Of a stretch of DNA of 64,000 nucleotides, positions 13,311 through 25,139 are shown in pieces; the stretch's first letter is position 1; each line of letters opens with the position of its first letter. The notes under the pieces were generated by a model. That model saw nothing but the letters and a program-made list of their open reading frames with translations. It did not search any database and was not told the DNA's origin. The stretch is from Deltaproteobacteria bacterium RIFCSPHIGHO2_02_FULL_44_16 (GTDB lineage Bacteria; UBA10199; 2-02-FULL-44-16): contig MGRM01000028.1 of the NCBI GenBank assembly GCA_001798185.1, positions 1 through 64,000 of the forward strand. The letters are read 5' to 3'. Made by a program: the position numbers and the translations under genes.

Positions 13311-13655
13311 TTATGAAATTTTTTTGAGAATACTTTTGAGTTGTCCAATCAAAATTGGAAGCTGATCCTGAATCGTATTCCACACAATCTCAACATCAAT
13401 ATCAAAGTATCCATGAATCAAACGATTGCGCGTGGCAATGATAATATTCCATGGAACAGAAGCATATTTTTTGCGGAATACAAGCGTGAGCTTGTTTGCA
13501 GCCTCTCCGATCATTTCAATTTCTTTGATCAGTGAAAGAAGGAGCTGACGATTCTCTTTAAGATCTTGTTGAGTTTTGTTTCTGATAAAAGAGCAAGCTT
13601 CCAGTGCTGCGTCGAGCATATGCTGAATGCGAATCATGTCAGGATTACGCGGCAT
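13311..13655 (-). CDS. hepT: HepT-type HEPN ribonuclease toxin
   Basis: The 114-residue helical HEPN protein carries the RX4HXY active-site motif as RNRLIHGY at about residues 76-83. In characterised HepT/MntA modules HepT is a ribonuclease and MntA inactivates it by AMPylating the Tyr of this motif. Length and helical pattern fit the family. Its start lies 11 bases inside the upstream antitoxin gene, so the two are co-translated. A second, diverged pair is at 40419-41317. Confidence 0.9.
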   Translation of the reverse strand: MPRNPDMIRIQHMLDAALEACSFIRNKTQQDLKENRQLLLSLIKEIEMIGEAANKLTLVFRKKYASVPWNIIIATRNRLIHGYFDIDVEIVWNTIQDQLPILIGQLKSILKKIS

Positions 13656-14145
13656 AAAGAGTGTGCGCTTCTTTCAAGACTTCATCGCGAAAATAGTGAC
13701 TGATTTCATTTTTTGTTTTGAGATCGATTTTTTTCCCATTGAGAAGTGTGGAAAGCTCTTGTTCGAGAACGACCATTTCAAAAAGATTTGGTTTTCTCTC
13801 TTTTTCGAATTCAATGAGAATATCAATATCACTTTGATCGTTAAAATCTTTTCCTAAGATTGAACCAAAAAGCATCAGCTTTTCAATGCCATGTTTTCTG
13901 CAAAAATGAACGAGAGCTTCTTGGGAAAGGGGAAAGCGAAAACGTGAAATCGTATCGGAGGCGGATTCATGTTGTATCGCTTCATGAATGAGTTGATCTA
14001 AAAGTTCACTTTGACTCTTGTGCAGTTGCTCCGCCTTTTGCTGAAGCCATGCAATATGTTGCGGAGGAAGCGTAAACGATGTGCGAACTCGTTTCTTTTC
14101 TCCTCGAAGGGGCCTTCCAGCCCTTTTTTTGCTTTTTTCAGACAT
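13645..14145 (-). CDS. mntA: MntA nucleotidyltransferase antitoxin with added N-terminal ribbon-helix-helix-like domain
   Basis: The 166-residue protein joins two parts. Residues 1-60 are basic (SKKRAGRPLRGEKKRVRTSF) followed by a helical TLPPQHIAWLQQKAEQ stretch resembling a ribbon-helix-helix DNA-binding domain. Residues about 75-166 form a minimal nucleotidyltransferase with the GSX10DXD motif (GSILGKDFNDQSDIDIL). The second part should AMPylate and silence the HepT encoded downstream. The first part could let the antitoxin repress its own promoter, where a CTTAATTAAG palindrome lies. Ordinary MntA proteins lack this extension. Confidence 0.85.
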   Translation of the reverse strand: MSEKSKKRAGRPLRGEKKRVRTSFTLPPQHIAWLQQKAEQLHKSQSELLDQLIHEAIQHESASDTISRFRFPLSQEALVHFCRKHGIEKLMLFGSILGKDFNDQSDIDILIEFEKERKPNLFEMVVLEQELSTLLNGKKIDLKTKNEISHYFRDEVLKEAHTLYAA

Positions 14146-14259: not shown

Positions 14260-16470
14260 ATGGGCGACGGTATTGTCAAAAAAATAGCGGTTGTCATCAA
14301 TAATGGTGATGAAGAGTGGCATCTTGAAAATGTCGACGCATCGCTTAACGTCCTCGAGTCACCGGAAACAGAAACCTTTGTCGTTTCAGTCCAGCCTCCG
14401 AAAAAACCACATGACCACTATATTTCAACGGCAAAAAAAGATGTAGAAGCGCTTCTCACCGATCTTCGTCAGAAAATTGATGATGACGATGAGGTTGTTT
14501 TCTATATTACTGGTCATGGAGCGAAGTTCGAAAAACAATCGACGATTTGTTTGAACGACGACTGCGATACTTTCCATTTACTTCAACAACTCGATCAGCT
14601 CTCTTTTGGAAATCGAACCGTTATTATGGATCAGTGTTTAAGCGGCGATCTCACTGCTCTTTTTGCTGACGATCAACGATCGCTTATTCTTTCGTTAAGT
14701 CATAATAATGAAACAGATATCTGTCCTGAGTTTGCACCATACTTTTGGTCGTCTGAGCCTGGTTCGTGGCTTGCGCGCTATCAACGTGCTTATCCTCATG
14801 TGCATAGTTCAACGCCAAAGATGGTGATGACAGCTGGTTACAAACTTAATGGAACATCGAGCTTTTCTTCAACGGTTGAACATTTTGAGACGGGAGAAGA
14901 GTTGGATTCATATTCGAAGCTAAAACCGGGAGAGCTTCGAATTGTTTATTTTTCTCTGAAAGATTGTAAACCTTGTATTGAATATGATCCGCTTTATACA
15001 AAATTTGCGCAGGATGGTGGTGGGATTTATCATTTTGTGAAAACAGAGAATACGGAACTTTCGGAAAAATACGGTTTTAAGAGTTGGCCTTCAGTGATGG
15101 TCATTGATGCGCAGGGAAGACAATTTACGATTCATGATAAAAAACATCTCTTCGAAGAAATAGCTGCGCTTTACCTTACTCCAGCACAGCGTCTCGAGCA
15201 GATTCGAAAGTCTCTCCTTCAGAAAGATGAGATAGGACTTCTTTTTGCCTCTTTTTATGCTCGTAAACTTGCGACTGAATTAACACCTGCAGAAGCAGCA
15301 CGTGAAGCTCAGGCGCTTCGAGAATTGATAGTGGAATACGGACAGAAAATTGGGACAGGAGAAATCGATATTGATCCTGAGCGAGCGGGCTACATGAGTT
15401 ATCATCTTCAACGTTCTTATGTCGCAATGACCTTACAGATGGAGCCCGAAGAATTGATAAAGGAGGTTCAAGCATTGAGCAAGCTTCTGAAGAATCTCCA
15501 GCAAGACTCTCCTCTTATGGGAACGTTCGACGATTTAGCAAGAGCGACCCTGCTTCATGCAGTACATGAAAAAGTTATCTTAGATAAAAAAGTTCCCTCG
15601 GAAAATTTTATCCCTCAGACTCGAGAGCACTTTGCAGCTTCTGAAAAAAGTGAACTCTACCGTCGTAACGCTATGATTGGATATGCACGCATGATTGCTA
15701 CCTTTGATGTTTCACCAGAAGAAGTTCATCAGGGAATTCATGCACTGTCTGAGGTGGTAACGAAAACAGATAATATATTGCTCCTCGAAGGAGCGGTTCT
15801 TGCGGCGGCAACACTTCTTCCAAAGGTTCCACAACATGATTATAATGATCTTTTGAGCCTGGCTTTGAATATCTATAACAAAACAGCATCTGAAAATTCT
15901 TTTGATCCTCTGACGCACGATCGTGCTTATGAATTGATTAAACAGCTTGTGAAGCTTATGGAACAGATGCCATCAGAAGAGAAAAGTGCAGAAGTTCAGC
16001 TAACTCTTCCAAAACCACCGACTCCTTTTTTTACTTATGGAATTTCGTTAAATGTAAGAACCAAACCGATATCGTTAACCAGTTTTACGGTCCAGGATAT
16101 TGGTGTCAGACAGTCTGTCTCTGGGCGTTTGTCATCTCTTCTCCCTCTTCACGATCTGGTAGACTTGGGAGTGAAACTTGAGGCGGGAATGGCCCAGGAT
16201 GGTACTGGTAAAAATGTTGGAGAACCGACGTTTGATTTTTCACTAAGTGCTCTTTTCGGTCATTATGGAAAAGGAGGATTTATCACCGCTGATGTCGGAG
16301 TGGGGTATTATTTCGGCTTTCAAAATGAACCATTTGTGACCGGAAGCGCAGAGATGGGACTTCATCTCATTCCCCATTTTGCCGCAAGTTTTTATGGCCA
16401 GGTTGGAGTTACCTTTGATCGTCAGGAAGCCAATGGACAATTTGGTTTACGTTTCTGCATTACGAAATAA
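14260..16470 (+). CDS. Caspase-like / thioredoxin-like / C-terminal beta-barrel fusion protein
   Basis: The 736-residue protein is a three-part fusion not recognised as a named family. Residues about 1-200 look like a clan CD (caspase-like) peptidase: His86 in YITGHG and Cys126 in MDQCLSG form the expected dyad. Residues about 220-310 look like a thioredoxin fold with CKPC at 236-239 and WPSVMVID carrying the cis-Pro. Residues about 310-590 are helical. From about 595 to the end there are alternating beta strands (ITADVGVGYYFGF, ASFYGQVGVTF), like an outer-membrane barrel. No signal peptide is visible, which is odd for a thioredoxin or barrel. The 3' end overlaps the convergent lysine aminotransferase gene by 11 bases. 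Confidence 0.7.
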   Translation: MGDGIVKKIAVVINNGDEEWHLENVDASLNVLESPETETFVVSVQPPKKPHDHYISTAKKDVEALLTDLRQKIDDDDEVVFYITGHGAKFEKQSTICLNDDCDTFHLLQQLDQLSFGNRTVIMDQCLSGDLTALFADDQRSLILSLSHNNETDICPEFAPYFWSSEPGSWLARYQRAYPHVHSSTPKMVMTAGYKLNGTSSFSSTVEHFETGEELDSYSKLKPGELRIVYFSLKDCKPCIEYDPLYTKFAQDGGGIYHFVKTENTELSEKYGFKSWPSVMVIDAQGRQFTIHDKKHLFEEIAALYLTPAQRLEQIRKSLLQKDEIGLLFASFYARKLATELTPAEAAREAQALRELIVEYGQKIGTGEIDIDPERAGYMSYHLQRSYVAMTLQMEPEELIKEVQALSKLLKNLQQDSPLMGTFDDLARATLLHAVHEKVILDKKVPSENFIPQTREHFAASEKSELYRRNAMIGYARMIATFDVSPEEVHQGIHALSEVVTKTDNILLLEGAVLAAATLLPKVPQHDYNDLLSLALNIYNKTASENSFDPLTHDRAYELIKQLVKLMEQMPSEEKSAEVQLTLPKPPTPFFTYGISLNVRTKPISLTSFTVQDIGVRQSVSGRLSSLLPLHDLVDLGVKLEAGMAQDGTGKNVGEPTFDFSLSALFGHYGKGGFITADVGVGYYFGFQNEPFVTGSAEMGLHLIPHFAASFYGQVGVTFDRQEANGQFGLRFCITK

Positions 16471-17788
16471 ATAAATTCTCTGTCTTTAATGTCTCACGAA
16501 GAATGTCGATGGCTTTATCGATTTCTTTGGTCGTTACTGTCAGCGTTGGACGGAAGCGAAGAGAACGAGTACCACACGCAAGAATAATCATTCCTTTTTC
16601 ATAACATTTCTTTCGAACTTGGTCGCGAGTTTCTGGAGATGGGAAGTCGATCGCACACATTAAACCTAAGCCACGTGCATTGGTAATATCAGATTCGCGT
16701 TCAAGTTCCACAAGTCGAGAAAGCAGATGTTTTCCAACTGTCGCAGCATGTTGAATCAATTTTTCTGTATGAATGATTTCCAAAATTTTGGCGACACGCA
16801 CCATATCGACGAGGTTACCACCAAACGTTGAATTGATACGGCTTTGCTCAACGAAGACATTTTTTTCTATTTCATCAACGCGTCTTCCAACTAAAATACC
16901 ACACACCTGCGATTTTTTTCCAAAGGCAAGAGCATCTGGGACAACATGAAAGTGTTCATAAGCCCAAAACTTTCCGGTCAAACCAAAACCGGTTTGGACT
17001 TCATCAAAAATCAGCATGATCTCATGTTGATCGCAAAGTGTTCGCAGTTCTTTGAGAAATTCAGCACGAAAATGATTGTCGCCTCCTTCGGCTTGAATCG
17101 GTTCGATGAGAAGAGCAGCAATATCATCTGGATTTTTTTTGATCGCGCTGTGAATTTGCTCAAGAGCTCTCTCTTCTAATGAAGCAGCCGCAGCCGTATT
17201 TGGTTTTCCACCTTCAAACGTGAGTGAAGGAGGATCAATACGTGGCCAATCAAAACGCGGGAAATACTGATATTTTCTCGGATCAGCGGTGTTGGTCAGA
17301 GAAAGAGTGTAACCGCTGCGTCCATGAAATGCATTTTTGAAATGTATGACTTGTCTTCCTTTTTCATCTTTCGATCCACGAGCAAAATTCTTTTTGACCT
17401 TCCAGTCAAAAGCAACTTTCAGTGCATTTTCGATTGCGAGTGTTCCGCTATCGATCAAAAAAAGATGAGGAAGTTCTTTTGGAATGGCATAGCGGCCAAA
17501 GGCATCGACGGTTTCGGCAAATTCGACCGTGTAGACATCGGGATTGGAGACTTTATTGATCGCTGTTTTTCCGAGCTTCGTTATAAATGTGGGATTTGAA
17601 ATTTTGGGATGATTAAAGCCGACCGGAAGCGAAGCGAAAAAACTAAACATGTCGAGAAATTCGCGTTTGCCTTTAGAATCGTACAAATAACAACCGTGCG
17701 ATTTTTCCAGATCGCAGACAAAATCATATCCTTCAGCGAGAATATGTTTTTTCAGTGTTGCGTGAACGTCATTTGATGTCATGGTCAT
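16460..17788 (-). CDS. lat: L-lysine 6-aminotransferase
   Basis: This 442-residue PLP-dependent class III aminotransferase transfers the epsilon-amino group of lysine to 2-oxoglutarate, giving 2-aminoadipate 6-semialdehyde. Visible hallmarks are LIFDEVQTGFGLTG, ALLIEPIQAEGGDNHF and the PLP lysine in ALAFGKKSQVCG. The wording HLFLIDSGTLAIENALK resembles known Lat enzymes. The start at 17788 has AGGAGA upstream; a second ATG is two codons in. It lies downstream of glutaryl-CoA dehydrogenase on the same strand with a repeat in the 190-base gap. Together with the ALDH7 enzyme it implies lysine catabolism via aminoadipate. Confidence 0.9.
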   Translation of the reverse strand: MTMTSNDVHATLKKHILAEGYDFVCDLEKSHGCYLYDSKGKREFLDMFSFFASLPVGFNHPKISNPTFITKLGKTAINKVSNPDVYTVEFAETVDAFGRYAIPKELPHLFLIDSGTLAIENALKVAFDWKVKKNFARGSKDEKGRQVIHFKNAFHGRSGYTLSLTNTADPRKYQYFPRFDWPRIDPPSLTFEGGKPNTAAAASLEERALEQIHSAIKKNPDDIAALLIEPIQAEGGDNHFRAEFLKELRTLCDQHEIMLIFDEVQTGFGLTGKFWAYEHFHVVPDALAFGKKSQVCGILVGRRVDEIEKNVFVEQSRINSTFGGNLVDMVRVAKILEIIHTEKLIQHAATVGKHLLSRLVELERESDITNARGLGLMCAIDFPSPETRDQVRKKCYEKGMIILACGTRSLRFRPTLTVTTKEIDKAIDILRETLKTENLFIS

Positions 17789-17978: not shown

Positions 17979-19151
17979 TTATCGATACGCTTCAATTCCT
18001 GTGATGTCAGCCCCAATAATTAAGGTATGCATCTCATGCGTTCCTTCGTAGGTATAGACACTTTCCATATTCAGCATGTGGCGGATCACAGGGTATTCGT
18101 CGAGAATTCCATTTGCGCCTAAAATTTCGCGAGCGGTACGAGCAATGTTACGTGCGATGTTGACATTGTTCATTTTCCCCATCGAAATATGGGTGTGGCG
18201 AATTTTTCGACTGTCTTTCAAACGACCAAGTTGAAGTGCGAGCAATTGACCTTTGGTAATTTCGGTTAGCATCTCGACAAGTTTTTTCTGCGTCAGTTGA
18301 AATCCTGCAATAGGTCGATCGAATTGAATGCGCGACTTCGAATAGTTGAGCGCTGCTTCATAGCAGGCGATTGCGGTTCCAAGGGCTCCCCAAGCAATAC
18401 CGTAACGCGCTTGATTGAGACATTTGAGTGGGGCTTTCAGCCCTTTTGCTTTTGGTAACCGATTTTCTTCGGGAATGAGCACATCTTCGAGCACGAGTTC
18501 CGAGGTCATCGATGCGCGCAGCGAAAACTTTCCTTTCATCTCTGGTGCGCTAAATCCCTTCATCCCTTTTTCCACAAGAAATCCTAAAATTTCACCTTGA
18601 TCATCCTTTGCCCAAACTATCGCGACATCAGCAATGGTACCGTTGGTGATCCACATTTTTGCCCCAGAAAGGACCCAGTCCTTTCCTTTTTGGCGTGCGC
18701 GCGTGATCATGCCGCCGGGATTAGAACCAAAATCTGGTTCCGTAAGTCCAAAACAACCAATCTTCTTTCCACTGGCAAGTTCAGGAAGCCATTTTTTTTT
18801 CTGTGCATCTGAACCAAATTCATAAATCGGGAACATGACAAGCGACCCCTGCACAGAACAGAAACTGCGGAGTCCCGAATCACCTCGTTCAAGTTCCTGC
18901 ATGAGAAGACCATAGGCAACATTATTTAATCCAGCACATCCATATTCTGTGGGAAGATTGGAACCGAAAAACCCAAGAGAAGCCATCTTGGAAATGAGTT
19001 CTGTTGGAGACGTTGCATTTCGATGATGCTTTTCAATGATCGGCAACACTTCGCTGTCGACAAATGCACGTGCAGCATTTTGAATCATGATCTCATCTTC
19101 AGAGAGGAGATCGCTGATATTGAAATAATCGAGACAAGAAAGTTGAGCCAT
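17979..19151 (-). CDS. gcdH: Glutaryl-CoA dehydrogenase
   Basis: This 390-residue FAD flavoenzyme of the acyl-CoA dehydrogenase family converts glutaryl-CoA to crotonyl-CoA with CO2 release. FAD/substrate motifs are CFGLTEPDFGSNPGG and WITNG. The stretches FSLRASMTSELVLEDVLIP and, near the C-terminus, YEGTHEMHTLIIGADITGI, which carries the catalytic Glu, point to the glutaryl-CoA subgroup rather than short-chain enzymes. It would act late in lysine breakdown. It is divergent from the aminomutase-like gene at 19295 and upstream of lat. Genes for 2-oxoadipate to glutaryl-CoA are not in the window. Confidence 0.92.
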   Translation of the reverse strand: MAQLSCLDYFNISDLLSEDEIMIQNAARAFVDSEVLPIIEKHHRNATSPTELISKMASLGFFGSNLPTEYGCAGLNNVAYGLLMQELERGDSGLRSFCSVQGSLVMFPIYEFGSDAQKKKWLPELASGKKIGCFGLTEPDFGSNPGGMITRARQKGKDWVLSGAKMWITNGTIADVAIVWAKDDQGEILGFLVEKGMKGFSAPEMKGKFSLRASMTSELVLEDVLIPEENRLPKAKGLKAPLKCLNQARYGIAWGALGTAIACYEAALNYSKSRIQFDRPIAGFQLTQKKLVEMLTEITKGQLLALQLGRLKDSRKIRHTHISMGKMNNVNIARNIARTAREILGANGILDEYPVIRHMLNMESVYTYEGTHEMHTLIIGADITGIEAYR

Positions 19152-19176
19152 AAGTGCCCCTTTATGAATTATTCAA

Positions 19177-19214
19177 AACCGCGCGAGGGTTTACTCATTT
19201 ACCCTTGCGCGGTT
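19177..19214. promoter_or_regulatory. Strong hairpin in the gcdH / aminomutase-like divergent spacer
   Basis: Arms AACCGCGCGAGGGT (19177-19190) and ACCCTTGCGCGGTT (19201-19214) pair at 13 of 14 positions around a 10-base loop. The hairpin sits between divergent starts at 19151 and 19295. It could be a DNA operator shared by both genes or an RNA structure in the plus-strand leader. No T-run follows it, so it is not a typical terminator. Confidence 0.55.
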
Positions 19215-19294
19215 GTGAAACATATTGGGAAGCAATTCAAGCGAAATTCCCAAACTTGCCTTCTTCGCAAGCTTTCGATAATGGGAGCAAACTC

Positions 19295-20836
19295 ATGTAT
19301 CGGAAACTCAATCTTGATCGAGATAAAGTCGATCAATGTCGCAATTTAGCACAGAGCATTATGGCTCCTGTTCTCCGTTATGTGAGTCACCACTCTTCTA
19401 CTTCCATAGAAGCAGCCTGTTTATCTCTCATCGGCATTTCAGGAGAGAAGAAAAAGCGAAGCTTCGCTTTTTCTTTTGTGGAAATCCTTGGCCGCGATCG
19501 TCTTCGATCAGGGGCGTGCCTTTGGCTTGGGCGCGTGATGGTGCATGCAAATCTCTCTCCTCAGTCAGCTTGTGAACAGGTGGTCGCGAAAAAAATCAAA
19601 TTTGATGCCGTTGCTGGGATCTCAGTTGAGCAGGCACGCAGTGTTCTTCGAGAGCATGTACTTCAGGCTCTGCGTTCGCTTGATGATCTGAAGCGTCAGA
19701 GAGATGAGCGTGGGAACACGTTTCCTCTTGGACAACCTCTTACGCAGCTTATCATTCCCGTTGAACGAATAGAAAAAGTTCACAGTGCAGTGAACGATGC
19801 TTTTAAATTGCGCATTCCTTTGGTGACATTGATTGCTCAGGGAAAGAAAAAACCTTTTGAAGAACCGACAGAAAAATTAGCGCAAGAGCTGACGCGTTTG
19901 GGAACAAAAAAAGAAAAAGGAAAACTTGGTGTCGAAAGTTCTCATCTTTTCTCTCCTGAGTTTGCGGTCATGGCAGTGAAAAGTGGAGTTGATATGGTCG
20001 TTGCTGATCCCCTGACCGATATTTTGATGTTTGAGATCAATATGAAGCGAGCTTTGATTGATCATCATTTTCAACGTCGTCTTCTCGCGCGTGCAGGAGT
20101 GTTGCTCATGACGCGAGATGATCGGTTTCTCTCTGCAGTTGATATCGCGCGATCAGGCTATCAACAGATCGTGCTTTCATTTTTACATGAAGCCTTCAAT
20201 GAAGAGGCACAGATTTCTCCAGAACTCTTTTCTCTGACACATGCTTTTTCGCTCAACCCTTCGGTCAAAGAAGGGATGCTTCATGAGTTTGCACATGCTC
20301 AAGTGATGCGAGAACTCTATCTTCGTCATCCCCTTCATTATCTTTCGCTCTCCTCCTACACTTCTCTCTCTCCTTCTCTTCGTGCAAGTACGCTTGCGGT
20401 GTATCATCTGATAGCTTTATTGACCGAGCAAAATATCGTGACGCTTCCAACGAATGGTGATCATCCTCGAGATCGATCGGAGATGCTCTCCTGTGCAGGT
20501 TCTCTTCTGGAAGGAATGTCCGGAGGAGGCGATGAAATCACGATGAGTCCCAATGGAAAGATTGCGCGACGTGCTCATACCCTTTTAGAGAATAGCTGGA
20601 AGCTGCTTCGAAAAATTCAGCAAGTGGGGCTCATGAAATCATTTTCAGAAGGAATATTTGGGGGCATGATATGCAATGAAGAAAAAGGGGAAGGACTTGA
20701 AGGTGTTTTTCAAAAAGAGCGAGGATATTTCAATCCGCTCTTTGAAGAGTTTCAACTAACGACAAAAAAAGAAGAAAAAGAAGGAGAGAAACATGGCCGG
20801 CATCGGCGTCATTCTCAACCCGCACTCACGCAGTAA
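19295..20836 (+). CDS. Lysine 5,6-aminomutase alpha-subunit-like protein, catalytic segment apparently lost
   Basis: The 513-residue protein aligns end to end, from memory, with KamD. Shared landmarks are the start (MYRKLNLDRDKV), FEINMKRALIDHHFQ near residue 246, HAFSLNPSVKEGMLHE, HTLLENSWKLLRKIQQVGL and the closing EGIFGGMI...YFNPLFEEF. The middle differs: the KamD segment that lines the PLP site (RTTGQS through GATTEGFGG and a Cys-rich NYCSGLC) is replaced by about 20 fewer residues of charged sequence. No KamE, the cobalamin- and PLP-carrying beta subunit, is adjacent. The start at 19295 has GGGAG 7 bases upstream. It overlaps the next gene by 44 bases. It may be decaying, or it may have taken a new role near lysine catabolism. 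Confidence 0.75.
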   Translation: MYRKLNLDRDKVDQCRNLAQSIMAPVLRYVSHHSSTSIEAACLSLIGISGEKKKRSFAFSFVEILGRDRLRSGACLWLGRVMVHANLSPQSACEQVVAKKIKFDAVAGISVEQARSVLREHVLQALRSLDDLKRQRDERGNTFPLGQPLTQLIIPVERIEKVHSAVNDAFKLRIPLVTLIAQGKKKPFEEPTEKLAQELTRLGTKKEKGKLGVESSHLFSPEFAVMAVKSGVDMVVADPLTDILMFEINMKRALIDHHFQRRLLARAGVLLMTRDDRFLSAVDIARSGYQQIVLSFLHEAFNEEAQISPELFSLTHAFSLNPSVKEGMLHEFAHAQVMRELYLRHPLHYLSLSSYTSLSPSLRASTLAVYHLIALLTEQNIVTLPTNGDHPRDRSEMLSCAGSLLEGMSGGGDEITMSPNGKIARRAHTLLENSWKLLRKIQQVGLMKSFSEGIFGGMICNEEKGEGLEGVFQKERGYFNPLFEEFQLTTKKEEKEGEKHGRHRRHSQPALTQ

Positions 20837-21728
20837 TCGCAATAATCCCGATCGCGTAAAACGTTTTGGTTTTATTGTTGGAGACAAAGGATCATGTCAT
20901 GAAACAAAAACGCTCGATGATGTGAAGAAGCTTGCCCATGAGTTTCGTGATCGGGAGATTGAGATTTTAGGCATTTCTGGTGGAGATGGAACACTTCACA
21001 AAACATTGAGTGTATTTGTTGATGTTTATGGAAAAGCGAAGCTTCCGAAGATTGCGTTTTTGCGCGGTGGAACGATGAACAATGTTGCCAATACGATCGG
21101 GATTCGTGGTACACCTGAAAAAATTCTTTCGAATATGATTGTGAAATATCATCGCAGTGAACCTTTCACCGAAACGAAATTGAATTTGGTGAAAGTGAAT
21201 CACTCGTATGGTTTTCTTTTTGGCATGGTAGCAGTCACAAACTTTATTAAACATTACGAGAGTATCCCTGGGGAACCGACGCCATTTCGTGCGGCGTATT
21301 TACTTCTTTATTATCTCTGGCTCGCTGTTATTAAAGGAAATGCTGTTGAAGAAATTTTCGAACCCATTGAAGGAAAAATTTTTGCGGATGGAAAAGAGCT
21401 TTCGTTTTCTGAATATACGATGATTTTTGGAGGAACAGTTGAGAATCTCTGTTTTCAATGTCGTCCGCTGCATCAGGCACGTCGGCTTGAAGATGCCTTT
21501 CAAATGGTTGCTGCTTCGTGTACGCCGCGAGAACTTCTTCGTCTTGTGCCTCGCACATTTTTTATGAAACCGATGCAATCAGAGAAAGTCGAAAACGTGA
21601 TTGCAAAGGAAGTGATTTTCCAATTTTCAGAACCAATTTCGTATATGGTCGACGGCGATTTTCCTGAGCCACCCACAAAAACGATCACCATATCGATGGG
21701 TCCGCGACTCACGTGTATCGTTTCCTAA
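20793..21728 (+). CDS. Diacylglycerol/lipid kinase family protein
   Basis: This 311-residue protein has the DAGK/YegS/sphingosine-kinase catalytic fold, which phosphorylates lipid alcohols using ATP at the inner membrane surface. Visible motifs are the N-terminal ILNPHS, the nucleotide loop GISGGDGTLHKTL at about residue 60, and FLRGGTMNNVANT. YMVDGDFPEP matches the conserved C-terminal DG(E/D) loop. GAAGGAGAG precedes the ATG. The gene begins 44 bases inside the aminomutase-like frame and ends flush against the brnA stop on the other strand. The lipid substrate is unknown. Confidence 0.88.
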   Translation: MAGIGVILNPHSRSNRNNPDRVKRFGFIVGDKGSCHETKTLDDVKKLAHEFRDREIEILGISGGDGTLHKTLSVFVDVYGKAKLPKIAFLRGGTMNNVANTIGIRGTPEKILSNMIVKYHRSEPFTETKLNLVKVNHSYGFLFGMVAVTNFIKHYESIPGEPTPFRAAYLLLYYLWLAVIKGNAVEEIFEPIEGKIFADGKELSFSEYTMIFGGTVENLCFQCRPLHQARRLEDAFQMVAASCTPRELLRLVPRTFFMKPMQSEKVENVIAKEVIFQFSEPISYMVDGDFPEPPTKTITISMGPRLTCIVS

Positions 21729-24988: not shown

Positions 24989-25060
24989 GTCATCCTCGCG
25001 AAAGCGGGGATCCAGAAAAATTGATAAACACCTGGATTCCTGCTTTCGCAGGAATGACAC
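24989..25060. repeat. Dispersed inverted repeat (GTCATCC...GGAATGAC family), copy 1
   Basis: The element starts GTCATCCTCGCGAAAGCGGGG and ends CTTTCGCAGGAATGAC, an imperfect palindrome with GGATCCAG/CTGGATTCC inside. It translates in one frame to peptide ends like PRESGDP and WIPAFAGMT, familiar as spurious database ORFs. A related, longer copy is at 54319-54402. The rest of 24932-25203 holds nothing else recognised. Confidence 0.85.
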
Positions 25061-25139
25061 CGTATTCATGAAAAGTGAATTCACTCTATTGTCGACACTC
25101 CCAGGAGAAGTTGCTCAAGGTTAAACTCTCATTATTCTG

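Follow-up and report, generated by a model that had tools for sequence, protein, structure and literature searches.

The open reading frame at positions 19295-20836 of the 64,000-nucleotide window (the whole stretch of DNA that was analysed) encodes a homologue of KamD, the alpha subunit of D-lysine 5,6-aminomutase, that is predicted to be unable to catalyse the mutase reaction because neither its PLP site nor its substrate site survives and the genome (97.5% complete) lacks a KamE to bring the cobalamin and the PLP lysine. The best explanation of the gene is that it represents a kamD orthologue left in place after the loss of the B12/PLP lysine 5,6-aminomutase pathway, which is now adjoined by genes for an L-lysine 6-transaminase (LAT) and an acyl-CoA dehydrogenase. 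The scrambled PLP and substrate residues, the absence of KamE and clear purifying selection support, at the level of sequence, the reading of the original prediction that the product (pseudo-KamD) is a pseudoenzyme and not that of a decaying gene. The features of the locus are as follows.

16460-17788, minus strand: L-lysine 6-transaminase, LAT (TIGR03251, 645.2 bits, cutoff 520.8)
17979-19151, minus strand: acyl-CoA dehydrogenase (glutaryl-CoA dehydrogenase-like), divergent from the pseudo-KamD gene (Pfam, NCBIfam)
19152-19294, no strand: intergenic region between the two divergent genes (sequence read)
19295-20836, plus strand: pseudo-KamD, putative KamD-derived pseudoenzyme, 513 amino acids, whole ORF
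19295-19708, plus strand: N-terminal helical domain, residues 1-138, retained, with the class-specific LDRDxxxxCR and W77
19709-20521, plus strand: TIM-barrel region, residues 139-409, active site lost
20522-20749, plus strand: C-terminal segment, residues 410-485, retained, GDE...NGKIARRAHTLLEN...GLEGVFQK...YFNP
20750-20833, plus strand: basic C-terminal tail, residues 486-513, ...KHGRHRRHSQPALTQ
20793-21728, plus strand: DAGK-type lipid kinase (gene 1), 311 amino acids, overlapping the end of the pseudo-KamD ORF by 44 bases (PF00781, 50.3 bits; GGDGT intact)

The homology to KamD covers the full length of the protein, as had been proposed (PF09043, E = 6e-71, 239.8 bits), and the score against the KamD equivalog model NF052384 (235.2 bits) lies far below its cutoff of 600. 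The ORF begins with the ATG at 19295, which aligns with the N-terminus of 1xrs_A; an alternative upstream GTG start at 19154 is possible. A sequence search of the PDB matched 8t0v, 9q1a and 1xrs (E = 1e-46 to 1e-52). The match to KamD consists of two stretches that leave residues 144-214 unaligned between them, and the phosphate-binding loop of 1xrs_A (R184/G187/Q188/S189) falls within this unaligned part. An AF2 model was built from 25 orthologues (mean pLDDT 87.7, pTM 0.89) and its best Foldseek matches were 9q1a, 8t0v and 1xrs with TM scores of 0.87-0.88, so that the protein is modelled with a KamD fold across its entire length. The INMKR and EGIFGG...YFNP motifs named in the original prediction are both present. 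The YFNP motif is found at residues 478-481 compared with 505-508 in 1xrs, and approximately 27 residues have therefore been lost; the loss had been recognised correctly and its size, given as about 20, underestimated. The C-terminal segment is 61% identical to that of the catalytic protein of genome G006 and the barrel 26%. The OAM_alpha profile matches residues 15-55 weakly (E = 0.11).

In lysine 5,6-aminomutase, PLP is contacted by Ser238, Tyr263, Asn299, Arg184, Arg268, Ser189, the amides of Gly187-Gln188-Ser189 and Tyr236, and the PLP lysine is Lys144 in the Rossmann domain (PMC3958899). Ten of the 12 mapped PLP and substrate positions are substituted in pseudo-KamD and only S238 and D298 are kept, in line with the earlier observation that the PLP-site segment has been replaced. 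The alignment gives A, K, K, K, E, T, F, R, S and H at positions 184, 187, 188, 189, 236, 263, 268, 299, 341 and 370, with the restriction that it is uncertain in the stretch 139-215 and, because the region is rearranged, so loose around 184-189 that single letters there are unreliable. Among the residues listed in PMC3958899 (R184, G187-Q188-S189, S238, Y263, R268, N299), S238 alone survives. The comparison was extended to 46 genomes of the class (numbered from G000, the genome that carries the window, and assigned to families with numbers such as f1). All 12 positions are invariant in the alignment of 19 intact class members and scrambled among 14 degenerate KamD proteins, with no position at which these share a common residue.

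The gene that follows pseudo-KamD encodes the lipid kinase and not KamE, as originally noted, and no KamE was found elsewhere in G000 with PF02310 and a class-specific KamE profile, which were used instead of PF16554 since the latter gave no match even in the controls. Only two B12-binding domains are encoded in G000, within proteins of 149 and 1220 amino acids which, from their sizes, we take to be MCM-like and MetH-like, respectively. Kdd (NF052381), which takes the following step of the radical lysine pathway, was likewise not found in G000. The KamE profile gave no match in G000 and 13 other genomes with a degenerate KamD; of the remaining three, G003 has a remnant, and G009 and G041 have degenerate copies. 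KamE of G041 and G009 lacks the DAHTVG cobalamin motif, and that of G041 also lacks the NMKG lysine region; in G041, KamD and KamE have degenerated jointly and the two adjacent genes are still open (locus L059, 69-2893). In G003, a KamE remnant of 156 amino acids between the degenerate KamD and the kinase (L063, 6143-6613) consists only of the dimerisation part and the lysine/arginine-rich tail KKKYRRRKKRAPRK. In G033, KamD is lost from an otherwise intact locus that still has its neighbours, the transaminase, the P6C dehydrogenase and the kinase (L254, 1216-8540), and a gene for a putative lipoprotein of 517 amino acids occupies the place of KamD before the kinase.

The position of the gene next to lysine-catabolism genes has a counterpart in other genomes of the class. 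Kdd is present in 24 of the 46 genomes, every one with a high-scoring intact-type KamD, and a LAT-grade transaminase is present in 11 genomes, every one with a degenerate KamD, with zero overlap between the two sets. Degenerate KamD genes are adjoined by genes for a P6C dehydrogenase (787 bits, cutoff 730), an acyl-CoA dehydrogenase or a transaminase in f1, f2, f8 and f17. The positional link to lysine catabolism is real and probably inherited from the ancestral kam locus, and one route of lysine degradation has been exchanged for another at this one site, with genes for a transaminase, a P6C dehydrogenase and an acyl-CoA dehydrogenase in place of the radical fermentation genes. In the window, the nearby lysine 6-aminotransferase was identified as predicted and the divergent neighbour is an acyl-CoA dehydrogenase; its assignment to glutaryl-CoA did not hold at the curated equivalog cutoff (228.7 against 470), for which reason glutaryl-CoA is only a putative substrate. 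A promoter scan of the intergenic region 19152-19294 found no promoter-like excess, a terminator scan gave no informative signal either, and Rfam gave no match in the 64-kb window. Three further ORF observations were made in the window: a 736 amino acid ORF adjoining the LAT gene (14260-16470) with weak Peptidase_C13 and thioredoxin-like matches, two overlapping minus-strand ORFs that by eye resemble a HEPN/MNT toxin-antitoxin pair (13311-14145), and an ORF (24990-25071) with the peptide CHPRESGDP...WIPAFAGMT, which is characteristic of a translated repeat element of wide occurrence.

KamD was found in 44 of the 46 class genomes, and the usual intact operon, present in most genomes, is Kdd-KamA-KamD-KamE-(Kal-Kce)-DAGK kinase. 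Degenerate KamD proteins are encoded in 17 genomes (G000-G004, G009, G010, G013, G017, G021, G024, G026, G028, G031, G036, G038 and G041), all 17 in open frames without frameshifts or internal stops, and KamD of G016 and G045 seems partly degenerate. Of the two outcomes that the original prediction had named as refuting it, a kamE partner elsewhere and frameshifts in relatives, neither was observed. In an rpoB tree, the genomes with a degenerate KamD are G041, which lies inside f12 (100/89), G009, which is sister to G016 (98), G024, which is sister to the intact G019 (100), and a clade of f1, f2, f5, f8 and f17 that has the intact f3 nested inside it (100/92). The KamD tree gives the same placements for G041 in f12 (95), G024 with G019 (100) and G009 with G016 (92), and it separates the 14 degenerate proteins of the f1/f2/f5/f8/f17 clade from f3 (95), which may reflect long-branch attraction or one loss and a regain. 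From these placements and the ambiguous position of f3, catalysis appears to have been lost independently at least four times, and up to seven times, if the intact operon is ancestral. Horizontal replacement of the intact KamD was considered and rejected: the KamD and rpoB trees agree on G041/f12, G024/G019 and G009/G016, and loss in place is therefore favoured. The only foreign-looking intact copy was found in G042 (f15); it is 60% identical to 1xrs and groups outside the class.

The degenerate proteins differ strongly from intact class members in where they are conserved. Mean column conservation (degenerate versus intact) is 0.51 versus 0.56 for residues 1-138, 0.25 versus 0.73 for residues 139-215, 0.42 versus 0.82 for residues 216-345, 0.25 versus 0.76 for residues 346-409 and 0.50 versus 0.68 for residues 410-485. 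Pairwise identity within families shows that the N-domain is unaffected by the loss of catalysis (55-63% in degenerate pairs, 60-63% within f5, versus 53-63% in catalytic pairs), whereas identity of the barrel is 27-39% in degenerate pairs (38-39% within f5) and 81-84% in catalytic pairs. These values suggest that the N-domain evolves at an equal pace with or without catalysis, and that the constraint on degenerate KamD sits in the N-terminal helical domain and the C-terminal segment, with the barrel evolving fastest. Within families, the N-domain of degenerate KamD has a pN of 0.22-0.30 and a pS of 0.67-0.75; overall, pN (0.22-0.52) is far below pS (mostly 0.67-0.88), and exact omega values are unreliable because dS is saturated. 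The G022/G027 pair, which had been sliced out of frame, is excluded from these comparisons. A decaying pseudogene was rejected on the basis of the open frames and a pN well below pS, and relaxed decay was rejected from dN/dS together with the region-wise identities. Fourteen residues are 100% conserved among the 14 degenerate proteins compared (L5, R9, H33, E39, L43, G73, W77, R339, E340, G421, R425, L438, Y478 and P481). The residues R9, D10, C15, W77 and R425 are at least 95% conserved in intact class forms, conserved in the dead forms too, and not conserved outside the class; the N-terminal motif LDRDxxxxCR with W77 is thus common to catalytic and dead class KamD and absent outside the class.

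The DAGK-type kinase is a single-copy gene in 44 of the 46 class genomes. In each of the 15 checkable loci it follows the degenerate KamD downstream in the same orientation (by coordinates in G028), usually overlapping or within 50 bases, compared with none of 69 loci outside the class, which were gathered by a scan with intact class relatives. The kinase adjacency may be a matter of inheritance, since the kamDE operons of intact class genomes also contain the kinase, and the kinase does not depend on KamD everywhere, since it is kept in G033 after the loss of KamD.

Long basic KamD tails occur in several lineages of the class. RG-rich tails are found in G014, G019, G029, G034, f12 and G001/G002/G024. 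The tail is carried by KamD where KamE is gone (G000, G001, G002, G004 and G024), and in f3 it is KamE that ends in a K/R-rich tail. The degenerate forms of f5, f8 and f17 and the catalytic forms of f10/f14/f16/f19 lack basic tails. Outside the class, KamD tails are 13-24 amino acids long in readable loci, with the exception of one A/G-rich extension. In Desulfotomaculum copahuensis (L207), the KamD frame runs 366 amino acids past YFNP as an Ala/Gly-rich sequence, apparently into KamE, a possible KamD-KamE fusion. Several KamE proteins of the class (L084, L085, L086, L093, L094 and L096) carry amphipathic ends that differ between lineages, METLKRWFQKK at the N-terminus or RSLFGWLGG at the C-terminus, and resemble signals for membrane targeting; no such ends were seen in KamE outside the class.

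The retention of dead KamD in at least four lineages suggests a second, non-catalytic job that was present all along. We put the chances at about even that KamD of the class is retained for a non-catalytic structural role, which would be the reason that pseudo-KamD is kept. The loss of the active site and of KamE would leave pseudo-KamD without mutase chemistry, and the second role would be seated in the N-terminal helical domain and the C-terminal segment, often with the help of a tail, basic or amphipathic, carried by KamD or KamE. Its likeliest form, we infer, would be that of a scaffold or regulatory partner recruiting co-encoded proteins; a guess at the recruited protein is the lipid kinase translated directly after pseudo-KamD, and a guess at the target is a negatively charged surface, either membrane or RNA. 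Stated for the class, KamD(E) would be bifunctional, a B12 mutase with a class-specific structural role that persisted after the enzyme was lost, independently in four lineages or more, a proposal that we would neither favour nor doubt on balance.

Among the alternatives, the barrel might be re-used as a sensor of a small molecule, such as lysine, PLP or a CoA ester, with a regulatory function in lysine catabolism. The model shows a folded barrel (TM 0.88), some lineages adjoin LAT, P6C dehydrogenase and acyl-CoA dehydrogenase genes, and in f1 the gene is divergent from its lysine-catabolism neighbours, a frequent arrangement of regulators. However, the degenerate forms share no residue at the former pocket positions, conservation is lowest in the barrel, inside families too, the gene is located away from LAT in f5 and G024, and a profile search found no DNA-binding domain in pseudo-KamD. 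The original suggestion that lysine, a cofactor or a CoA intermediate is sensed in the old pocket is not supported, given the unconserved pocket and the fast evolution of the barrel, and a sensor in general is unlikely. A role in nucleic acid binding, in which arginine/RG-rich tails make class KamD(E) a moonlighting RNA- or DNA-binding protein kept for operon regulation, agrees with the distribution of the RG-rich tails and with the tail retained by the G003 remnant; several lineages are tail-less, however, and the amphipathic KamE ends resemble membrane targeting more closely, so that we regard this role as improbable. A new enzyme, with an altered, lineage-specific active site in the barrel and a different, KamE-independent reaction, is very improbable: TIM barrels support many kinds of catalysis and D238, R252, D256, E299, R339 and E340 are still conserved, but most of these are invariant in intact KamD too and look structural, and the degenerate families have no pocket signature in common. 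Slow decay of a useless kam-operon leftover, kept open perhaps by translational coupling to the overlapping kinase gene, would fit the lost pathway, the fast-evolving barrel (38% identity within a family), the overlap of the pseudo-KamD stop with the kinase start and the complete loss of the gene in G033, but it is strongly disfavoured and hardly credible in view of 17 open frames across separate lineages, a pN far under the saturated pS, an N-domain that evolves no faster than in catalytic enzymes and the 100% conservation of R9, H33, E39, G73, W77, R425, Y478 and P481 (n = 14), given that coupling requires an open frame and not particular residues.

Pseudo-KamD shares its fold, its N- and C-terminal segments and the ancestral locus with KamD (1xrs_A, 8t0v, 9q1a; PF09043; NF052384), and differs in the substitution of the PLP loop R184-S189 and of Y236, Y263, R268, N299, E341 and K370, in the missing KamE and in being shorter up to YFNP. 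The barrel is also homologous to that of D-ornithine 4,5-aminomutase (OraS/OraE; 3kow, E = 0.0097), of which the OraS profile is the OAM_alpha model that weakly matches the N-domain; pseudo-KamD has neither a PLP lysine nor a mutase B12 domain, of its own or from a partner. Like pseudoenzymes in general, it has kept the fold under purifying selection after loss of the active site, but here it was an orthologue and not a paralogue that lost activity, repeatedly within one class. We know of no non-catalytic role for any subunit of an AdoCbl/PLP radical mutase. No earlier description of such a case was found in the titles and abstracts of papers on aminomutase pseudoenzymes, on kamD/kamE or on UBA10199 and lysine, a source in which few subscription journals are covered.

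The repeated loss of catalysis with unchanged constraint on a single domain provides unusually clean evidence of a hidden second job, and it directs attention to one domain and one candidate partner. If the bifunctional reading is true, the class offers a natural series from intact KamD and KamE to degenerate KamD and KamE (G041, G009), KamD with a KamE dimerisation remnant (G003), KamD alone (G000) and no KamD (G033). Beyond an orphan KamD, the gene is one case of repeated pseudoenzyme formation in a class in which a second role of KamD seems to have predated the loss of catalysis.
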